Source: a virus
Strand: one strand, 5' to 3'
Virus record (IMG/VR): IMGVR_UViG_3300034523_000191
Location: 1 to 27,253 of that record
Length of the DNA stretch: 27,253 nt
The position numbers and the translations under genes are program-made. The first letter of the stretch is position 1; every line of letters begins with the position of its first letter. This document shows, one piece after another, positions 4,064-14,815 of this stretch. The notes under the pieces were generated by a model. It searched no databases. It had not been told where the DNA came from and worked only from the letters and a program-made list of their open reading frames with translations.

Positions 4064-4352
4064 GCTTGCGCCCCCTCTTCAGTTGAGTGGCGACCTGTTT
4101 GCTGGCTAGTTCGAATAACTCGTTGGGGGAAACCGGAGTGACCGACTGCTCGCAGTTGTGCACGGCTTCTAAGCGAGTGCGATACAGCCCGGCCTGGCCG
4201 AGCCAAGCGGCTGCGTTGTGTTCGGCGTCGGACACTGGGCAGCCGTGGGTTCTAGGGACAGTGCCTTGGTGGGTGCGCCTGCACTTCCTGCAGTGATACA
4301 GGCCGCCGTCGTCGCCGTCGCTCATGTACCAATCATGGCGGTTAGTGCTCAT
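4056..4352 (-). CDS. Hypothetical phage protein with CxxC motif
   Basis: A 98-aa protein beginning MSTNRHDWYMSDG, chosen at the ATG at 4352 because GGAGG lies six bases upstream and this ATG overlaps the stop of the upstream gene (ATGA). It contains YHCRKCRRTH and further Cys/His (HGC, HNC), so it may bind a metal. The C-terminus is strongly basic (KRGRKRA). No family is recognised. Confidence 0.6.
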   Translation of the reverse strand: MSTNRHDWYMSDGDDGGLYHCRKCRRTHQGTVPRTHGCPVSDAEHNAAAWLGQAGLYRTRLEAVHNCEQSVTPVSPNELFELASKQVATQLKRGRKRA

Positions 4353-5398
4353 GCTGCCTCCAGGGGGCTTTCGTGCGCCCAGCTGCTGTCGCAGAGGCCG
4401 TAGGCGCTGGAGCAGGCTGAACTGTCTGCTTCTCCATCGCTGGCGATTAGGTCGTACTGGATCCCTCCACGTGTGGTGCGGGACCACTCGACTGTTTGGT
4501 GGATGTTGGCGATGGCAACGAGCTCGGCCGGGGTCATGCCCTCAGTTGGGCCTCGCTGATGCTTGGCATTCGCGGCCGCAAAGAACGTCGCCCCGCCACG
4601 CTTGCTAGCCCGGCGGACCAGGTCCTCCCAGTGAGCGATTCGCTCGATGTGCTCGGGGAAGCGAGCTGCGATCTCTCGCAGTTCACCTTTGCGACAGTTG
4701 ATGCATGGCATGCATCCAACTCGCCCCATGCCCTGGCTGTAGAGGGGATTGGGTTTGATGCCTTGGTACTTGTGTGCTTCGAACACGGCCTCTACCGGCC
4801 AGTCGAGAATCGGGCGGTAGTTGTAGAGTCCGCCCCCTACCTCGTCCAGTTCGGGTAGGTAGCGTCGGACGTCCGACTCCTCGCGGCGCACTCCCTGCCA
4901 TGACAGGACCATGTTCCTGCCTTCGATTAGCGGGAGTATCACCTGTTCTACTATGACGTTGCGTTTAAGCTCTTCGGTGCAAAACTGCGCCTTTCGGGAA
5001 GGGAACCGGCCTTTCCAGAGGCAGAGGTCAAGGAATGGCACGCCAGTGGGCTGCAACACCTGCAGTGCGCTTTCGATGATGCTTTCGGCGACGCCTTGCT
5101 CGCGCCACTTCGTGTTTATGAACTCGCGCTTGCGGGCGATCTGCTGGGTGAAGTCGGCCCGCACTGTGCGGATTGAAATTCCGGTGGCCGAGACCAGGTA
5201 ATCGACATACTCAAGCGTCGTCTCATGTTCATTGCCGGTGTCGGCGAAGACCCCGCTGAGATTGGGTACTTCCAGTGCTCGCGCGAGCAGCAGGGTTGCG
5301 GTGCTGTCCTTGCCGCCCGACACGCTGACGATGTTGAACTGATTTCCAGCGAGAAGATCGACGGCGTAGCCTGGGGCCAGGCTTGATGCGCTGTTCAT
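4349..5398 (-). CDS. PAPS-reductase/DndC-like family enzyme
   Basis: A 349-aa member of the adenine-nucleotide alpha-hydrolase superfamily. The ATP/PAPS-binding P-loop SGGKDS is at residues 27-32, with VFADTGNEH after the second strand and GVRREES at 169-175. Cysteines at 140 (FCTEELK) and 229, 232 and 235 (CMPCINC) could hold an iron-sulfur cluster, as reported for DndC-type members; a further Cys is at 126. The family includes PAPS reductase (sulfite formation) and DndC (DNA phosphorothioation). Which chemistry applies here is not decidable; dndA, B, D and E are absent. The start ATG at 5398 overlaps the stop of the methyltransferase gene (ATGA), so the two enzymes are translationally coupled. 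Confidence 0.85.
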   Translation of the reverse strand: MNSASSLAPGYAVDLLAGNQFNIVSVSGGKDSTATLLLARALEVPNLSGVFADTGNEHETTLEYVDYLVSATGISIRTVRADFTQQIARKREFINTKWREQGVAESIIESALQVLQPTGVPFLDLCLWKGRFPSRKAQFCTEELKRNVIVEQVILPLIEGRNMVLSWQGVRREESDVRRYLPELDEVGGGLYNYRPILDWPVEAVFEAHKYQGIKPNPLYSQGMGRVGCMPCINCRKGELREIAARFPEHIERIAHWEDLVRRASKRGGATFFAAANAKHQRGPTEGMTPAELVAIANIHQTVEWSRTTRGGIQYDLIASDGEADSSACSSAYGLCDSSWAHESPLEAA

Positions 5399-7077
5399 CA
5401 AGCGGCCTCCCGCTGAGCCACGCTCAGGCCGACGGCGATGGGGCGTACCCAAATCGGCATGCTGCTCAGCACGAAGGTTTCGCCCAGGGCGACCAGCAGC
5501 AAAGTGGTACCCATCACATCCGCTACGGCCTCTGCAGCGTGCGGAGGCACGGCGTTGCCGATGCGCTCGCGCCACGCTTGATCGCTCAGGCCGTCCAGCT
5601 CAAGTTGTTCCTCCGGCTCCACCAGGCTCTGGATCGCGGCCAGCTCGAAGGTAGTGAAAGGGCGGTGCCATGTCCCATCTAGTGACTCGATCACGCAGGC
5701 CAGGCGGTCATTGGCCGCGGGTAATCGCGGGTCGGCCACGCTCCAGCGGCCATTGTCATGCATAGCGCTGGCGGATACGGCGCCGGCCGGACCGTTCCAT
5801 GGCACAACGCCGTAATGCCCGCCGGTGAGGTAGGCATCACCCTTGGTGCGGCGCATACCGGGGCGTGGGTCCTGCACGGCAAAAGCGCCTTGGCCAGTCG
5901 TGCTGCCAGCTATGACGGTCCCCGCAGGGCTGTCATACGGAGTGACCTGGTACTTGCCGAAGCCAGCGCCCGCTCTACGCGGATCGGCAACGCTGAACGT
6001 TCCCTGGCCGGGGCTTTTCACACCGATCACCGCGCCGCTGGTGTCTTCCCAGCGGCGAACGCCGTACTGCTGGTACTGCAGCGCGCCGGTTTTGGCGCGT
6101 GGGTCTGCTACCGAGAACGCGCCATTGGTTGGTCGGGACTTGCCGGCCACAGTTCCTACGGATTTCTCCCAGGCGTTCACTCCCAGGTAGCCGGAATAGG
6201 CCTCGGGGACGATCACAAAGTCGCGCAAGTAGCCGTCCTCGATCGCCAGATCATTCAGGCTGCGCCAATCCTTGCCGGCTTCGACCAGGGCGAGGCGTAC
6301 CCAGGTCTTCCATTGCAGTGCCGGCACGCGGTGCATTGGGCCTGCTGCCTCGACGTCCCCGGCCAGGGGCATGCGGCCGAGAATGTCGCCCACGGCTCGC
6401 AGGGACTTCTTCTCTGGTTCGTAAAGGAACGGCGGTACTTTCTCTACATGGCGTGCGACAAGCAGGAACCGCTTGCGGCTTTGGGCCAGGCCGCCGATAA
6501 CTCCGCAATCGTGCGTGGTCTCGGCGACGGCGTAGCCAAACTGGGCCAGTAGGCTGTTGATCTGATCCAGCAGGTGCCGCCCACGGGTGGCGAGGCGCGG
6601 CACGTTCTCAAACACCAGCAGCGGTACCGGATCGTCGGCCCACGCTTCGCAGAACAGCCAGATGCAGCGCAGGGTCAGCTCGTTGAGGGCCTGGTAGCGA
6701 GGTGTTTGGCTCATCGTTTCCGACAGCAGCCCGCTAGCGCCCTTGCACGGGGAGCTTATGAACACCGCGTCGGGGCGCTGGCCACCAGCTGCGCGGCGGA
6801 TGTCTTCCGGCGTAGCCTCGCGCCACCCAGGTGGCGGTTCCTTGCCGTGGAAGCGGGTGTATTGGTCGCGGGTGAACAGATCGATCAGGGTGCCCTTGAC
6901 GCCCGACAGGCGCTCGAAGTCGGCCAGGCCGGCCGGGTCAACGTCGACGCCGCCGATGCACTGCCAGTCGGCCTGCAGGTTGCCAACGATAGGCTTAGAA
7001 CGATTGAACCCTTTCGCCCCCCCGCCCAGGCCGCAGCACATGTGGAAGTGCTTCAGTGTGTGCTTGCGCAGTGTCAT
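5398..7077 (-). CDS. C5-cytosine DNA methyltransferase with internal repeats
   Basis: A 559-aa DNA (cytosine-5) methyltransferase. Motifs in order: I, CCGLGGGAKGF (14-24); IV, SSPCKG with catalytic Cys near 111; VI, FENVP (156-160); VIII, QSRKRF (199-204); IX-like RPFTTFELAAIQS (472-484); X, RIGNAVPP (505-512). Between VIII and IX, where the target-recognition domain lies, there are four copies of a roughly 36-40-residue unit ending in (F/W)(S/A)V(A/Q)DPR at about 327, 367, 405 and 451. No restriction endonuclease is adjacent, so it is probably a solitary enzyme that protects phage DNA or alters gene expression. It begins at the ATG at 7077, overlapping the upstream stop. Confidence 0.93.
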   Translation of the reverse strand: MTLRKHTLKHFHMCCGLGGGAKGFNRSKPIVGNLQADWQCIGGVDVDPAGLADFERLSGVKGTLIDLFTRDQYTRFHGKEPPPGWREATPEDIRRAAGGQRPDAVFISSPCKGASGLLSETMSQTPRYQALNELTLRCIWLFCEAWADDPVPLLVFENVPRLATRGRHLLDQINSLLAQFGYAVAETTHDCGVIGGLAQSRKRFLLVARHVEKVPPFLYEPEKKSLRAVGDILGRMPLAGDVEAAGPMHRVPALQWKTWVRLALVEAGKDWRSLNDLAIEDGYLRDFVIVPEAYSGYLGVNAWEKSVGTVAGKSRPTNGAFSVADPRAKTGALQYQQYGVRRWEDTSGAVIGVKSPGQGTFSVADPRRAGAGFGKYQVTPYDSPAGTVIAGSTTGQGAFAVQDPRPGMRRTKGDAYLTGGHYGVVPWNGPAGAVSASAMHDNGRWSVADPRLPAANDRLACVIESLDGTWHRPFTTFELAAIQSLVEPEEQLELDGLSDQAWRERIGNAVPPHAAEAVADVMGTTLLLVALGETFVLSSMPIWVRPIAVGLSVAQREAA

Positions 7078-10443: not shown

Positions 10444-10639
10444 CGCCGTTGATTTCGCCAACGATCATGCTGAGTACTTCCTGCAGCTGTCGTTGCAGCG
10501 CCTTGCGCGCCTTCCTGAAAAGCCGAGCGCGCAGTTCTGTGAGGATTGCGACGAGCCGATTCCGTTGGCCCGTCAGCAGTCGGTCGCGGGTTGCGAAACC
10601 TGCGTCGACTGCCAGGGGTTGCGGGAGCGCCGGAGATGA
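10436..10639 (+). CDS. TraR/DksA-type C4 zinc-finger protein
   Basis: A 67-aa protein with C-x2-C-x17-C-x2-C at residues 35, 38, 56 and 59 (FCEDCDEPIP ... CETCVDC), the signature of phage TraR/DksA-like proteins. TraR binds the secondary channel of RNA polymerase and mimics DksA with ppGpp, altering host transcription. The N-terminal helix carries acidic residues (DFANDHAEY) comparable to the channel-entering tip of TraR. Its start overlaps the CII-like gene and its stop overlaps the primase start (ATGA). Confidence 0.85.
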   Translation: MADAVDFANDHAEYFLQLSLQRLARLPEKPSAQFCEDCDEPIPLARQQSVAGCETCVDCQGLRERRR

Positions 10640-13386
10640 GCGGGCGCCCAACTCCTACCACAGCTGATTGGGCGCGGCGTTACATTGAAACCTTCAACCT
10701 GGCCCTGGTTCCGATCGAGCCAGGCGAGAAGGGGCCGAAGGGTAAAGGTTGGAACCAGCCCGGTCGCTACTTCACTCTTGCCGCTGATGCCGAAGCGTTC
10801 TGGACGAAGCGCCCGAGTCACAATCTAGGGGTGGTGCTCGGGCCTAGTCGCGTCTGCTCGTTGGACGTTGATGACGTCGAACTGACGCGGCAGGTCATGC
10901 AGCAGACGCTGGGGCTCGACGTGGACGCCCTCGCAGACGCATACCCGACCTCCGTGGGTAACCCTGAACGTTTCCGTGTGATGTTCCGAGTCCCCGAGGG
11001 TGTGGAACTGAGTCGCCACGCCTTGGTTTGGCCCAACAAGAACGACCCCGATGGCACCATCTACAAGGGACTAATGGCGCAGGTCCAAGCAGCTGTATAC
11101 GCGGAAGATGCCGACCGCGAAGCGGCTTTCCGATTGGCTGCTGAGCCCTTCAAGAAAGTGACCGTCTTTGAGCTGCGGGGCGGCCTGGTGCAGGATGTGC
11201 TGCCGCCTTCCATCCACCCTGGCACGGGTAAGCCCTACACATGGCGCACTGAGCCAAACGACGACGGCTTGCTGGAGCTACCGCCCGAACTGCTGGCGAT
11301 CTGGCAGGGCTGGGACGAGTTCAAGCCCAAAGGGGAGGCCGTTTGCCCGTGGCGGCCGAAGCCGGCTATGCCCGCGGCTCGCCCAACGCCAAGGCCATCA
11401 CCAACTGCTGCCCGATCTGGTGACAAGCTCCCCGAGGTCATCCCGGAATTCAACCGCATCCATGACATCGCCACGATGATCGAGGCGCATGGCTACAAGC
11501 GTATCGACGGGAAGTGGCTGAGCCCGCACAGCAGCTCTGGCATGCCTGGGGTGACTATCACCGACGGAAAGCTCTTTTCCCATCACACGTCGGACCCGCT
11601 GGCGAACGGACACAAGAATGATGCCTTCGACGTGTTCTGCATTCTGATGCACGACGGCGATCAGAGGGCAGCTACCAGAGCGGCAGCGCAGATCCTTGGT
11701 ATCGATGCCAAATCGCGCCCGCCGGTACCCCCGCCGCTGGGTGAGCTTCCCCGCACCCCATCTGTTGCCGAGCAGGCCGACCAAAGCGCTGCGGGCGTTG
11801 ACACTGACGGATCTGCCCCCGACCCAATCGAGGCCAGCCCGGCCGCCTTCTCGGCCGACGGGGGGGAAGGGGGAAGCGCGCCGGATATTGAAGGCGCACT
11901 GCGGCGGTTCGCGCTGATAGAAGGGACCACGCAAGTCTGGGACATGGACAAGGCGAAGCCGATGAAGAAGTCGGCTTTCGAAGCCCTGGTGGGTAAGCCG
12001 TTGGCCAAGGTATGGCTGGAGCGGCCCGACAGAAAGCTGATTGCCCCTGAGCAGGCACAGGAGCTCGATGAGGCGCGACGCCTGTCAAGTAAGAAAGGTG
12101 GGGCGTTGAAGCTAGATCCCATCGAGCGCTACGTCTACATCGACGGGACCAAGGATGTCTGGGACCGGGAAAAGAAGCGTCGGATCCCAGAGGGCGCCGT
12201 GAAGATGGCATTGGGAGATGAGTACAAGTGGTGGCTGAACTGTCGAGAGCGGCGGGTGGTTGACGTCGACCACATCGTGTTCGACCCGACGATGACCAAG
12301 GACCCGAACGTCTACATCAATACCTTTGAAGGACTGCCCCTGGAGCCGGTGCGGGATGATGCTGCATGCGAGAACCTAAGATGGCTGATTTCGTTCCTTT
12401 GCAACCACGACGAGCAGGCGCTGGAATGGCTGGTGAGATGGCTCGCTTACCCGCTCCAGCACATGGGCGCCAAGATGGATACCGCTGTTTTGATGCACTC
12501 GATCATGGAGGGGTCGGGCAAGAGTCTGTTGTTCGCCGACGTCTTCGGTCAGCTCTACGGGCAGTATGCCGCGACGGTAGGGCAGACACAGTTGGAAGGC
12601 AGCTTTAACGCCTGGCAGAGCCGCAAGCTCTGGGCAGTGTTCGAGGAAGTTGTCAGTAGGGATCAGCGGTACAACCAGGTCGGCAAGATCAAGCACATGA
12701 TCACTGGCAAGACGGTGCGTATGGAGTCCAAGTTCATCAACGGTTGGGAGGAGGCCAACCACATGAACGCGGTCTTCCTGAGCAACGAAATCATGCCTTG
12801 GCCGATCAGCGACGCCGACCGACGGATGCTGGTGATGTGGCCCATGGAGACGTTGCCTGTCGCGAGGCAAAAGGCGATCAGCTATGAGTTGGCCAACGGT
12901 GGGGTTGCGGCCTTGTACGGTTGGTTGTTGGCTGTCGATTTGAGGGACTTCGACCAGCGCACTCGTCCGCCCGAGACTGAGGCACGGCAACGTTTGGTCG
13001 CACTGAGTCGCACAGCTTGGCAGACCTTCCTCGCGTTGTGGCGCACCGGAGAGCTGGGGCACGGCCTGTGGGGTTGTTGCCTCACCAGCGACGTCTATGC
13101 CCTCTTTATCGAGTGGTGCTCGCGCAACAAGGAACACTCCATGAGCCAGACGAAGTTCTCGCTGATGATCAGTGCGACGGTAGAGAAGACACGGGCTATC
13201 CCTTGGACGGATGGAAACAACCGGCGGTTCGCGGCGTTCTTCTTCCCGAGTGATGGTGATCCCTCCCTGCCCCCTTCCTTGAAGTCGGCCGAGCTGGGCA
13301 AGAACGTCGTCGAATGGCGCGCTCGGGCAAGGCTGGCGGGCTGGAACGTCGATGCTTGGGACCACGTGAAGGGGCTCGCAGCATGA
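10636..13386 (+). CDS. Primase-polymerase / SF3-type helicase replication protein
   Basis: A 916-aa replication initiator-type protein. The N-terminal part (about 10-240) is a bifunctional primase/polymerase domain with the catalytic pair in CSLDVDD (D77, D79). A Pro/Ala-rich linker (about 245-275 and 365-425) leads to a D5/DUF5906-like helicase with Walker A EGSGKS (625-630), Walker B LWAVFEEV (665-672) and SNE (716-718), with DADRRM after it as a likely arginine finger. It should unwind and prime phage DNA, probably at the repeat array just downstream. The start is the ATG at 10636, overlapping the zinc-finger gene stop; an upstream in-frame GTG/ATG at 10546 would lie within that gene. Alternative: D5-type NTPase of integrative elements. 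Confidence 0.9.
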   Translation: MSGRPTPTTADWARRYIETFNLALVPIEPGEKGPKGKGWNQPGRYFTLAADAEAFWTKRPSHNLGVVLGPSRVCSLDVDDVELTRQVMQQTLGLDVDALADAYPTSVGNPERFRVMFRVPEGVELSRHALVWPNKNDPDGTIYKGLMAQVQAAVYAEDADREAAFRLAAEPFKKVTVFELRGGLVQDVLPPSIHPGTGKPYTWRTEPNDDGLLELPPELLAIWQGWDEFKPKGEAVCPWRPKPAMPAARPTPRPSPTAARSGDKLPEVIPEFNRIHDIATMIEAHGYKRIDGKWLSPHSSSGMPGVTITDGKLFSHHTSDPLANGHKNDAFDVFCILMHDGDQRAATRAAAQILGIDAKSRPPVPPPLGELPRTPSVAEQADQSAAGVDTDGSAPDPIEASPAAFSADGGEGGSAPDIEGALRRFALIEGTTQVWDMDKAKPMKKSAFEALVGKPLAKVWLERPDRKLIAPEQAQELDEARRLSSKKGGALKLDPIERYVYIDGTKDVWDREKKRRIPEGAVKMALGDEYKWWLNCRERRVVDVDHIVFDPTMTKDPNVYINTFEGLPLEPVRDDAACENLRWLISFLCNHDEQALEWLVRWLAYPLQHMGAKMDTAVLMHSIMEGSGKSLLFADVFGQLYGQYAATVGQTQLEGSFNAWQSRKLWAVFEEVVSRDQRYNQVGKIKHMITGKTVRMESKFINGWEEANHMNAVFLSNEIMPWPISDADRRMLVMWPMETLPVARQKAISYELANGGVAALYGWLLAVDLRDFDQRTRPPETEARQRLVALSRTAWQTFLALWRTGELGHGLWGCCLTSDVYALFIEWCSRNKEHSMSQTKFSLMISATVEKTRAIPWTDGNNRRFAAFFFPSDGDPSLPPSLKSAELGKNVVEWRARARLAGWNVDAWDHVKGLAA

Positions 13387-13715
13387 ATACGCCGATATGT
13401 GTGTTGGGTGTGTTGGGCCTGTGTTGCATTGATTTCGGGATGCCAACACAGCGTGAGGCTTTGAACTTGGCGGCGCTGCGGGGTTGTGCGGTGGGTGTGT
13501 TGGGTTTGCGTACGCGCGCGCGCAGGCGCGTCATTTATTGGGGAGGTGACAAGGACCAAAGCAGACTTCATACGAGCCCTGAAAAACTCAACAAACCCAA
13601 CACACTCAACACATCTACTAATAATCCTATGAATTCATTGAGCTTTGAGTGTGTTGGGTCTGTGTTGGGTTGGCAAAAAGTGTGTTGGGTGCTGTTTACG
13701 GAGGGATGGCGATGA
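13383..13715 (+). CDS. Doubtful ORF across the repeat array
   Basis: A 110-aa frame whose ATG overlaps the primase stop (ATGA). Much of its composition is a read-through of the GTGTTGGGT repeats (VLGVLGL, VGVLGL, VGSVLGW), and the middle is low in similarity to any known protein. It may simply be an open frame over a DNA element. Translation coupling is possible, so it is recorded with low confidence. Confidence 0.25.
   Translation: MNTPICVLGVLGLCCIDFGMPTQREALNLAALRGCAVGVLGLRTRARRRVIYWGGDKDQSRLHTSPEKLNKPNTLNTSTNNPMNSLSFECVGSVLGWQKVCWVLFTEGWR
13401..13690. repeat. GTGTTGGGT repeat array, candidate replication origin
   Basis: Copies of GTGTTGGGT lie on the plus strand at 13401, 13410 (last base C), 13497, 13651, 13662 and 13682, with a partial copy at 13421. 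Inverted copies are at 13595-13603 (ACCCAACAC) and 13443-13449 (CCAACAC), and a variant at 13605-13613. A 15-bp perfect inverted repeat (13595-13609 and 13645-13659) encloses a 35-nt AT-rich loop. Such clustered iterons with an AT-rich segment directly after a primase-helicase gene are typical of phage or plasmid origins. A regulatory array for the following gene is an alternative. Confidence 0.6.
13507..13524. other. Alternating purine-pyrimidine tract
   Basis: Eighteen bases of strict alternation beginning TGCGTACGCGCG and ending GCA lie inside the repeat array. Such tracts favour left-handed DNA under negative supercoiling. A role in the origin is inference. Confidence 0.4.
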
Positions 13716-14260
13716 CGATTGACCATGGATTGCGCCTTCAGCTCCTGGTGCGATTGGCGCAGCACCAGATGGATATGGCAGTACTGATCGACCCGGCCGA
13801 GCGACTACGCCTGGTGAGCGAACTGATGCGCCACTGGGGCGAGCAGCGTGGGAGGGTGGGGCTTGAGGCGAGCTTGGGCAGCCAGATGGGCACGATCATG
13901 CAATGGAAGGGGGCGGCACCGCGCACAGGATCGTCGGGGGCGCGTATTTTGGTGTCCGGTGCAGGCCTCGACCATTCCGCCGCCGAGGTTGACGCTGCAG
14001 TAGCGGAACTGGCGCGGCGTGATGCTCGTGGCGCCACGTTGGCCAAGCTGGCCGAGCTGCGCTACCTCCACGGCGTGACTGTGCGAGAGCAAATGCGCGA
14101 AGTAGGGCTTGCCGAAGACGCGGATCGCACCTATCGCAACTGGGTGAAAGCGCTGCACTTGCAGGTGCTGGCCATCCTGGGGGCAAGGGCGGGGCGGGTA
14201 CGCTTGCCTACCGTTCGTCGGGTCGCTATGCAACTTGCCTGCAACATGGATGTTACATAG
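13712..14260 (+). CDS. Possible late antiterminator (Q-like) regulator
   Basis: A 182-aa mostly helical protein located between replication and lysis genes, where antiterminator Q lies in lambdoid phages. The C-terminal half (about 95-165) contains a sigma-region-4-like arrangement (LAKLAELRYLHGVTVREQMREVG, then DADRTYRNWVKALH), which could bind DNA. There is no visible zinc motif. The start is either ATG 13706 or 13712; GGAGGG at 13700-13705 fits 13712 better. A terminator lies 147 bp after its stop, before the holin, consistent with a protein that allows readthrough into late genes. Family assignment is tentative. Confidence 0.5.
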   Translation: MTIDHGLRLQLLVRLAQHQMDMAVLIDPAERLRLVSELMRHWGEQRGRVGLEASLGSQMGTIMQWKGAAPRTGSSGARILVSGAGLDHSAAEVDAAVAELARRDARGATLAKLAELRYLHGVTVREQMREVGLAEDADRTYRNWVKALHLQVLAILGARAGRVRLPTVRRVAMQLACNMDVT

Positions 14261-14406
14261 CGCCCACATTGTGGCGTACCGATAATAGCCCCTTTTCGGT
14301 TTTTCCGGTGGCATGTAAAAAGGCGTCACGATATGAAAAGTGCGCTTAGGCGCTTCCCCCACAAGCACTGTGCTGTGCAACCGCTCCGACCTGTCGGTGC
14401 ATTGAG

Positions 14407-14437
14407 AACCCTGCCATTTGGCGGGGTTTTCTTTTTT
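14407..14437 (+). terminator. Intrinsic terminator before late genes
   Basis: AACCCTGCC-ATTT-GGCGGGGTT (one G-T pair) followed by TTCTTTTTT. It lies between the Q-like gene and the holin, in a 207-bp gap (14261-14467) that has no gene; the rest of that gap shows no clear promoter. A terminator in this place suits Q-type antitermination. Confidence 0.75.
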
Positions 14438-14467
14438 CGGCGCCGTGCTTTGCCAATTGAGGCCTGC

Positions 14468-14815
14468 ATGAACAGTGAGCAACAAGCGTTAGCCGAACTG
14501 CCAATCTGGATGGTGATCGTACTGTCCCTGGTCGGCGGTGTGTCGGGAGAAATGTGGCGGGCGGACAAGGCGGGCGCTCGCGGTTGGGGGCTGGTTCGCC
14601 GGCTGGCCTTGCGGTCGGGTGCCTGCGTCACCTGCGGGTTGTCGACCAACATGCTGTTGTACGCCAGTGGTATGTCGGTATGGGCATCGGCAGCGATTGG
14701 TTGCCTCACCGCGATGGCCGGCGCGGACGTGGCGATTAACCTGTACGAGCGCTGGGCCGCCAAGCGGCTGGGGCTGGCCCAGGTGCAGTCAGCAGGCAGC
14801 GAGGCAGGCCAGTGA
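14468..14815 (+). CDS. Phage holin
   Basis: A 115-aa inner-membrane protein. Hydrophobic segments lie at about residues 12-30 (LPIWMVIVLSLVGGVSG) and 55-92 (two blocks: CGLSTNMLLYASGMS and VWASAAIGCLTAMAGADVAI), with charged segments between and a polar tail, as in phage holin families of Pseudomonas prophages. It would form the lesion that ends infection. The start is the ATG at 14468, after TTGAGG. No endolysin or spanin gene follows here, so lysis partners must lie outside the window. Confidence 0.78.
   Translation: MNSEQQALAELPIWMVIVLSLVGGVSGEMWRADKAGARGWGLVRRLALRSGACVTCGLSTNMLLYASGMSVWASAAIGCLTAMAGADVAINLYERWAAKRLGLAQVQSAGSEAGQ

Follow-up and report, generated by a model that had tools for sequence, protein, structure and literature searches.

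A candidate iteron-based replication origin directly downstream of a PrimPol-DUF5906 helicase gene in a family of phages

Introduction

The Rep protein of Staphylococcus aureus pathogenicity islands (SaPIs) and the Cch2 protein of the staphylococcal cassette chromosome mec (SCCmec) bind iterons directly 3' of their own genes by means of their C-terminal domains (PMC7581432), and the origins of phage-inducible chromosomal islands (PICIs), located 3' of rep, consist of two iteron sets with an AT-rich region between them (PMC6092414). Here we describe a repeat array at 13400-13690 of a virus record from IMG/VR (IMGVR_UViG_3300034523_000191; 27,253 bases, the whole of which is termed the window), which, judging from comparative sequence evidence, is very probably a phage replication origin recognized by the PrimPol-DUF5906 helicase encoded next to it.

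The locus, here in tailed phages, resembles the SaPI and PICI pri-rep-ori units: its putative origin comes immediately 3' of the gene for the proposed initiator, opposed short iterons flank an AT-rich segment, and the helicase possibly has a fold of the superfamily 3 (SF3)/D5 type. It differs from them in its larger number of iteron blocks, its GC-rich alternating run, its archaeo-eukaryotic PrimPol and the position of the putative origin within a conserved open frame. Because the window encodes its own virion components (terminase, portal, protease, major head, neck, baseplate and tail genes), the element does not qualify as a PICI. In SCCmec, the short repeats bound by the C-terminal domain of Cch2 likewise follow straight after the helicase gene, but the putative origin has only three AAGTG repeats and the polymerase/primase is separate (PMC7581432). 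The alpha protein of phage P4 is also a primase-helicase, with a C-terminal winged-helix domain that acts on the repeats of its ori (PMC4234260), but its primase is of the TOPRIM type, and the window protein scored 26.4 bits against TIGR01613 (P4-family primase), under the cut-off of 108.7. The pRN1 protein orf904 resembles the window protein in combining PrimPol with an SF3 helicase and in having its origin 3' of the gene, although that origin is a stem-loop and contains no iterons (PMC4234260). The polymerase of phage NrS-1, likewise a PrimPol-helicase, is the closest solved structure (6k9c, 6lrb); in contrast, two 8-nt mid-genome sites, and no iteron array, were proposed as the possible origin of this phage (PMC7102993).

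A 2018 paper called the PICI origin layout common to PICIs and to no other known bacterial replicon; it would now also be present in complete Pseudomonas phages and their marine relatives, which bears on the sharing of replicons between satellites and phages. A search of the literature, confined to open-licence papers, found no description of the array.

Organization of the repeat array

Six exact copies of GTGTTGGGT occur in the window, all of them within 13401-13690, five on the plus strand and one on the minus strand (13595-13603). The expected count is 0.18, and six copies were reached in none of 100 shuffled sequences. The first-pass annotation of this DNA had reported exact copies on both strands within 300 bp after a primase-helicase gene, and this description was borne out. 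When degenerate copies are included, which are themselves corroborated by the cross-species alignment, the array comprises about 12 ten-bp iterons, starting at 13400, 13409, 13420, 13487, 13496, 13650, 13661 and 13681 on the plus strand and at 13441, 13586, 13595 and 13604 on the minus strand. It begins 14 bases past the stop codon of the primase gene.

Iteron block 1 (13400-13429, plus strand) consists of TGTGTTGGGT at 13400, TGTGTTGGGC at 13409 and the degenerate TGTGTTGCAT at 13420. It is followed by a single inverted degenerate iteron (13441-13450, minus strand), which many relatives match with a reverse-oriented copy at offset +58 (mean column conservation, 0.88). Block 2 (13487-13505, plus strand) contains the degenerate TGCGGTGGGT and then TGTGTTGGGT, the conservation of this second unit being 1.00. 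A GC-rich run of alternating purines and pyrimidines (13507-13524) lies between this block and a conserved non-iteron box (13570-13585; CATACGAGCCCTGAAA in the window, often YAYGCGNGAGG elsewhere), which directly precedes the three units of the inverted block 3 (13586-13613, minus strand; 13595-13604 is exact, and the middle unit has a conservation of 1.00). Block 4 (13650-13690, plus strand) carries three copies of TGTGTTGGGT, at 13650, 13661 and 13681.

The opposed iterons of blocks 3 and 4 flank an AT-rich segment (13614-13649), the candidate melting site, in which A+T amounts to 69% in the window and to a mean of 72% over 132 relatives; the GC content of the whole window is 61.9%. An inverted repeat (13591-13609 and 13645-13663; 19 nt, 95% complementary) has its arms 35 nt apart around this segment. 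The inverted repeat and its AT-rich interior of 35 nt had been recognized earlier, with arms given as 15 bp. The only Rfam matches, weak miRNA models far under their gathering scores, were produced by this inverted repeat and were discarded. Terminator-like stems were detected at 13512 (weak, within the GC-rich run) and at 14404, and no sigma70-like promoter was found in 13300-14500.

Conservation of the array

The comparison was based on 146 loci with a primase-helicase, taken from genome and viral collections. In nearly all of the Pseudomonas loci, TGTTGGG occurs on the plus strand at offsets of about 18, 27, 38, 105, 114, 268, 279 and 299 from the end of the primase gene; on the minus strand of these loci it occurs at 203 and 212, and in part of them also at 58, the distances being fixed. 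Iteron order, orientation and spacing are kept across more than 130 Pseudomonas relatives, and in an alignment of 132 the mean consensus frequency was 0.946 for iteron columns versus 0.659 for spacers (p 4e-31).

An array of this kind is not confined to a single repeat sequence. In 282 of 297 unique loci, one 7-mer occurred five or more times without overlap within 420 bases past the helicase stop codon; none of six control windows gave more than three such loci. Conversely, a scan for the iteron DNA pattern that took no account of the primase placed the helicase no more than 450 bases away in all 74 decidable loci, six further loci being too near the locus edge to be decided. The alternating GC-rich run, of at least 12 nt and located near +113 to +128, recurred with most iteron types, being present in 97% of the loci with the same motif and 80% of those with other motifs, versus 5-6% in null sequences; the YAYGCGNGAGG consensus, with up to two mismatches, was found in 40 of 74 other-motif loci, where about 11 were expected. 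The box at 13570-13585 and its equivalents, seen in arrays of several iteron types, may perhaps serve as a priming site.

The iteron sequence itself differs by clade, and includes TGTTGGG, TGTCAGG, TGTAAGG, CTAGGG, TGTGCAGGG, TGTCGGAAT and others. Distant relatives carry an array in the equivalent place with another repeat (TGTCAGG, CTAGGGTT, TGTGCAGGG, CCTAGG, TACAGGG, GACCGGGT, CAGACAGA, TGTGCGGG or GGTTAGGG); they comprise other Pseudomonas, Azotobacter, Hahella, Oceanobacter, Marinobacter, a metagenome-assembled genome of Verrucomicrobia and the phages H4907, S1 and KT1. Two loci (L174 and L197) have mixed arrays downstream of the helicase, with TGTTGGG in the outer and TGTAAGG in the inner blocks, and are possible intermediates of an iteron switch. 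In phage BPP-1 (L425; 25500-31500), inverted TTTGCCTCGT / ACGAGGCAAA pairs lie on the primase-sense strand about 475-590 bases past the bbp29 stop codon; the stem-loop origin that the pRN1 paper placed 3' of the replication gene in its sister phage BIP-1 might instead consist of iterons.

The PrimPol-DUF5906 helicase and its covariation with the iteron

The proposed initiator is a protein of 916 aa, encoded at 10636-13386 on the plus strand and assigned by Pfam, PHROG and a structure model. It matches the Pfam families Prim-Pol (8.4e-20) and DUF5906 (7.5e-19; 68.9 bits against a cut-off of 27.6), and its residues 9-884 match the DNA primase family phrog_1156 (1.2e-119). The full AlphaFold model (predicted local distance difference test score [pLDDT], 71.8; predicted template modelling score, 0.42) matched the C-terminal region of the NrS-1 polymerase (1e-12) as well as poxvirus D5/E5 and the PrimPol of African swine fever virus, and there was a fold match to the SaPI5 primase-helicase (Rep, 7ola; E ~1e-5), with a low template modelling score for the query. 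The candidate iteron-reading domain is the C-terminal part of the helicase, from about residue 740, which when modelled in isolation (pLDDT 80) shows a helix-helix-strand-strand order.

In a pairwise comparison of the 146 dereplicated loci (10,585 pairs, which are not independent of one another), the sharing of iterons rose from 1% at 30-40% identity of the C-terminus to 96% at 70-80%. For the subset of 64 loci in which four protein segments could be compared (2,016 pairs), the area under the receiver operating characteristic curve (AUC) for iteron sharing was 0.93 for the helicase core, 0.92 for the C-terminus, 0.50 for PrimPol and 0.53 for the downstream protein. Among pairs with PrimPol domains at least 60% identical, iterons were shared in none of 229 with C-termini below 40%, versus 95% of 1,466 with C-termini of at least 65%. 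Similarly, where helicase cores were at least 80% identical, iterons were common to only one of 42 pairs with C-termini below 55%. Since the pairs are not independent, trees were added to the test: the helicase tree required 8 changes of iteron label (minimum possible, 7; shuffled mean, 32.8), and in the 64-locus set 6 changes were required on the helicase or C-terminal trees and 10 on those of PrimPol or the regulator. Four natural chimeras (L208, L209, L215 and L216) are 74-95% identical to the window in PrimPol and 68-73% in the downstream regulator, with a helicase core of 45% identity, and the iteron of their arrays is TGTCGGAAT.

The proposal in the first-pass annotation of an iteron origin beside the primase-helicase gains support from array conservation, from association with the helicase and from this joint inheritance. 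Several observations weigh in the opposite direction. The loci that form the pairs are not independent, the chimeras may derive from few recombination events, and the motif has switched independently only a modest number of times. The isolated C-terminal model gave no significant match in the PDB, only weak winged-helix-like ones, and no related plasmid replicon was found, the four distant matches having 22-25% identity. At the level of sequence, the covariation is co-inheritance of the iteron with the helicase/C-terminal half of the protein, not proof of mechanism.

In the mechanism proposed here, the TGTGTTGGGT iterons would be bound by the C-terminal portion of the helicase protein, whose gene lies directly upstream, and rings would form on the opposed blocks that flank the AT-rich segment. 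This segment would melt and the helicase would load, whereupon the PrimPol domain would prime and a phage or host polymerase would take over. In the clade of the window, the putative origin lies inside an open frame that joins the primase and the downstream gene. The matched sets of helicase and iteron, together with the natural chimeras, open the specificity of the initiator to direct testing and could be a source of orthogonal replicons.

Alternative functions of the array

Binding by the helicase might serve self-regulation or copy control only, with the true origin elsewhere, and binding deduced from covariation is indeed no proof of initiation. The array is, however, downstream of the gene and without a promoter match, and its layout of opposed iterons and AT-rich segment is that of proven PICI origins, so that we consider this very unlikely. 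An equally slight chance is given to the array as a binding site of the downstream regulator, the phrog_4300 protein (13712-14260, plus strand; PHROG match), acting on late transcription, an alternative that had been raised at the outset. In most relatives its gene adjoins the array, and repeats are a common target of regulators. The identity of the regulator was nevertheless without predictive value for the iteron: among pairs with regulators at least 60% identical, none of 32 with helicase C-termini below 40% shared iterons, compared with 93% of 374 with C-termini of at least 65%. Moreover, the chimeras carry another iteron despite their window-like regulators, the array of Stenotrophomonas phage S1 runs straight to the terminase with no such gene between, and the search for a sigma70-like promoter in the region found none.

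Still less probable is an origin of the pRN1 style, in which a large stem-loop rather than the iteron sequence would be recognized. The opposed blocks are able to pair, and a 3' stem-loop origin was proposed for PrimPol-helicase replicons including phage BIP-1 (PMC4234260). On the other hand, the single-strand fold was no better than that of shuffled sequences (z -1.13; 14 of 100 as good), and the iteron sequence, including the same-strand copies, is conserved and switches with the helicase. A packaging site (cos/pac) for the small terminase is among the least credible functions: the terminase genes lie about 1.2 kb downstream, and directly past the array in phage S1, but the small terminase that accompanies these iterons is of the Nu1 type in the window and of the Terminase_4/P27 type elsewhere (L155 and L156).

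An open frame across the array

An open reading frame (ORF) at 13383-13715 on the plus strand, termed the bridge ORF, spans the entire array with an ATGA overlap at each end. In the relatives it starts with an ATG that overlaps the primase stop codon (13383-13386 in the window), and in the window it ends at 13715, where its last bases (13712-13715) overlap the beginning of the downstream gene. The primase stop codon lies within ATGA in 197 of 200 TGTTGGG-type loci, and the terminus of the frame is mostly ATGA, TTGA or GTGA. Of 202 relatives, 191 keep this frame open across the array, whereas the two remaining forward frames are open in 4 and 5; when spacers were reshuffled and iterons held fixed, 15.7 were expected by chance. 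The first-pass annotation was correct that an ORF crosses the array, which it took to mostly decode the repeats; given this openness, the ORF is no trivial by-product.

That the repeats merely reflect a repetitive protein encoded by this ORF is as implausible as packaging, although the open frame and the ATGA overlaps would agree with it. The ratio of nonsynonymous to synonymous substitutions (dN/dS) was 0.96-0.98 for the bridge ORF, in contrast to 0.13-0.46 for the primase C-terminus, and its codon positions vary alike, with no third-position excess. In related phages the repeats and their spacing are conserved while the encoded amino acids drift, the reverse of the pattern that the first-pass annotation had set against an origin. 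Some loci have the second block at +113 instead of +114 and read the same iterons in another frame (VLGVLGL versus VCWVCWV), with the DNA unchanged. The ORF is missing from most arrays with other iterons. No PHROG match was found for the ORF at 13314-13715.

With a dN/dS of about 0.97 and a frame open far above chance, it is the frame that is kept, and not the protein. The bridge ORF is likely to act as a translational bridge, either through translational coupling or as a guard against Rho-dependent polarity over 330 nt. A putative origin within a frame that stays open although its protein is unconstrained poses a new question, and one that can be tested, about translation across an origin.

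Annotators of related phages left the stretch of the array empty, except in Stenotrophomonas phage S1, in which gp2 (L154, 2454-2804), a hypothetical protein, is merely the frame across the iteron array of S1 itself. In two loci (L139 and L143), the translation reveals a natural in-frame fusion of the bridge frame with the downstream gene, and L075, judging by length, probably has one as well.

A possible initiator-iteron code

A helix in the C-terminal part of the helicase, which holds the candidate residues for iteron recognition, varies with the iteron type. TKFSL(F/M) accompanies TGT(T/C)GGG, TKFSGF is found in all TGTCAGG loci, TKLITI in TACAGGG loci, and in TGTAAGG loci a 3-residue insertion follows the helix. 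The helix is not the whole code, because FSLF occurs with CTAGGG too. We tentatively propose, as a joint claim that we rate somewhat below even, an initiator-iteron code evolving in a large phage family: a handful of residues in a single helix and turn of the C-terminus (about residues 839-846 of the window protein) may help to set which iteron of 7-10 bp is read, with the architecture, GC-rich run and AT-rich segment fixed, which would amount to a natural set of orthogonal origins; within one clade, in addition, the origin may be embedded in an ORF selected for openness rather than sequence, which would let ribosomes cross.

Other genes in the window

The gene content of the window includes an integrase, a CI-like repressor, a CII-like activator, PrimPol-DUF5906, a holin, a Nu1/GpA terminase, and portal, head and tail genes. 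The gene at the place matching that of the phrog_4300 gene in Halomonas phage H4907 is annotated as an antitermination protein. Overlapping genes with PAPS-reductase and C5-cytosine-methylase domains (4352-7077, minus strand) may represent DNA modification or defence cargo. At the integrase end, a HATPase/STAS-like gene and a DUF4325 STAS-like gene (45-1314) are either cargo or host flank.
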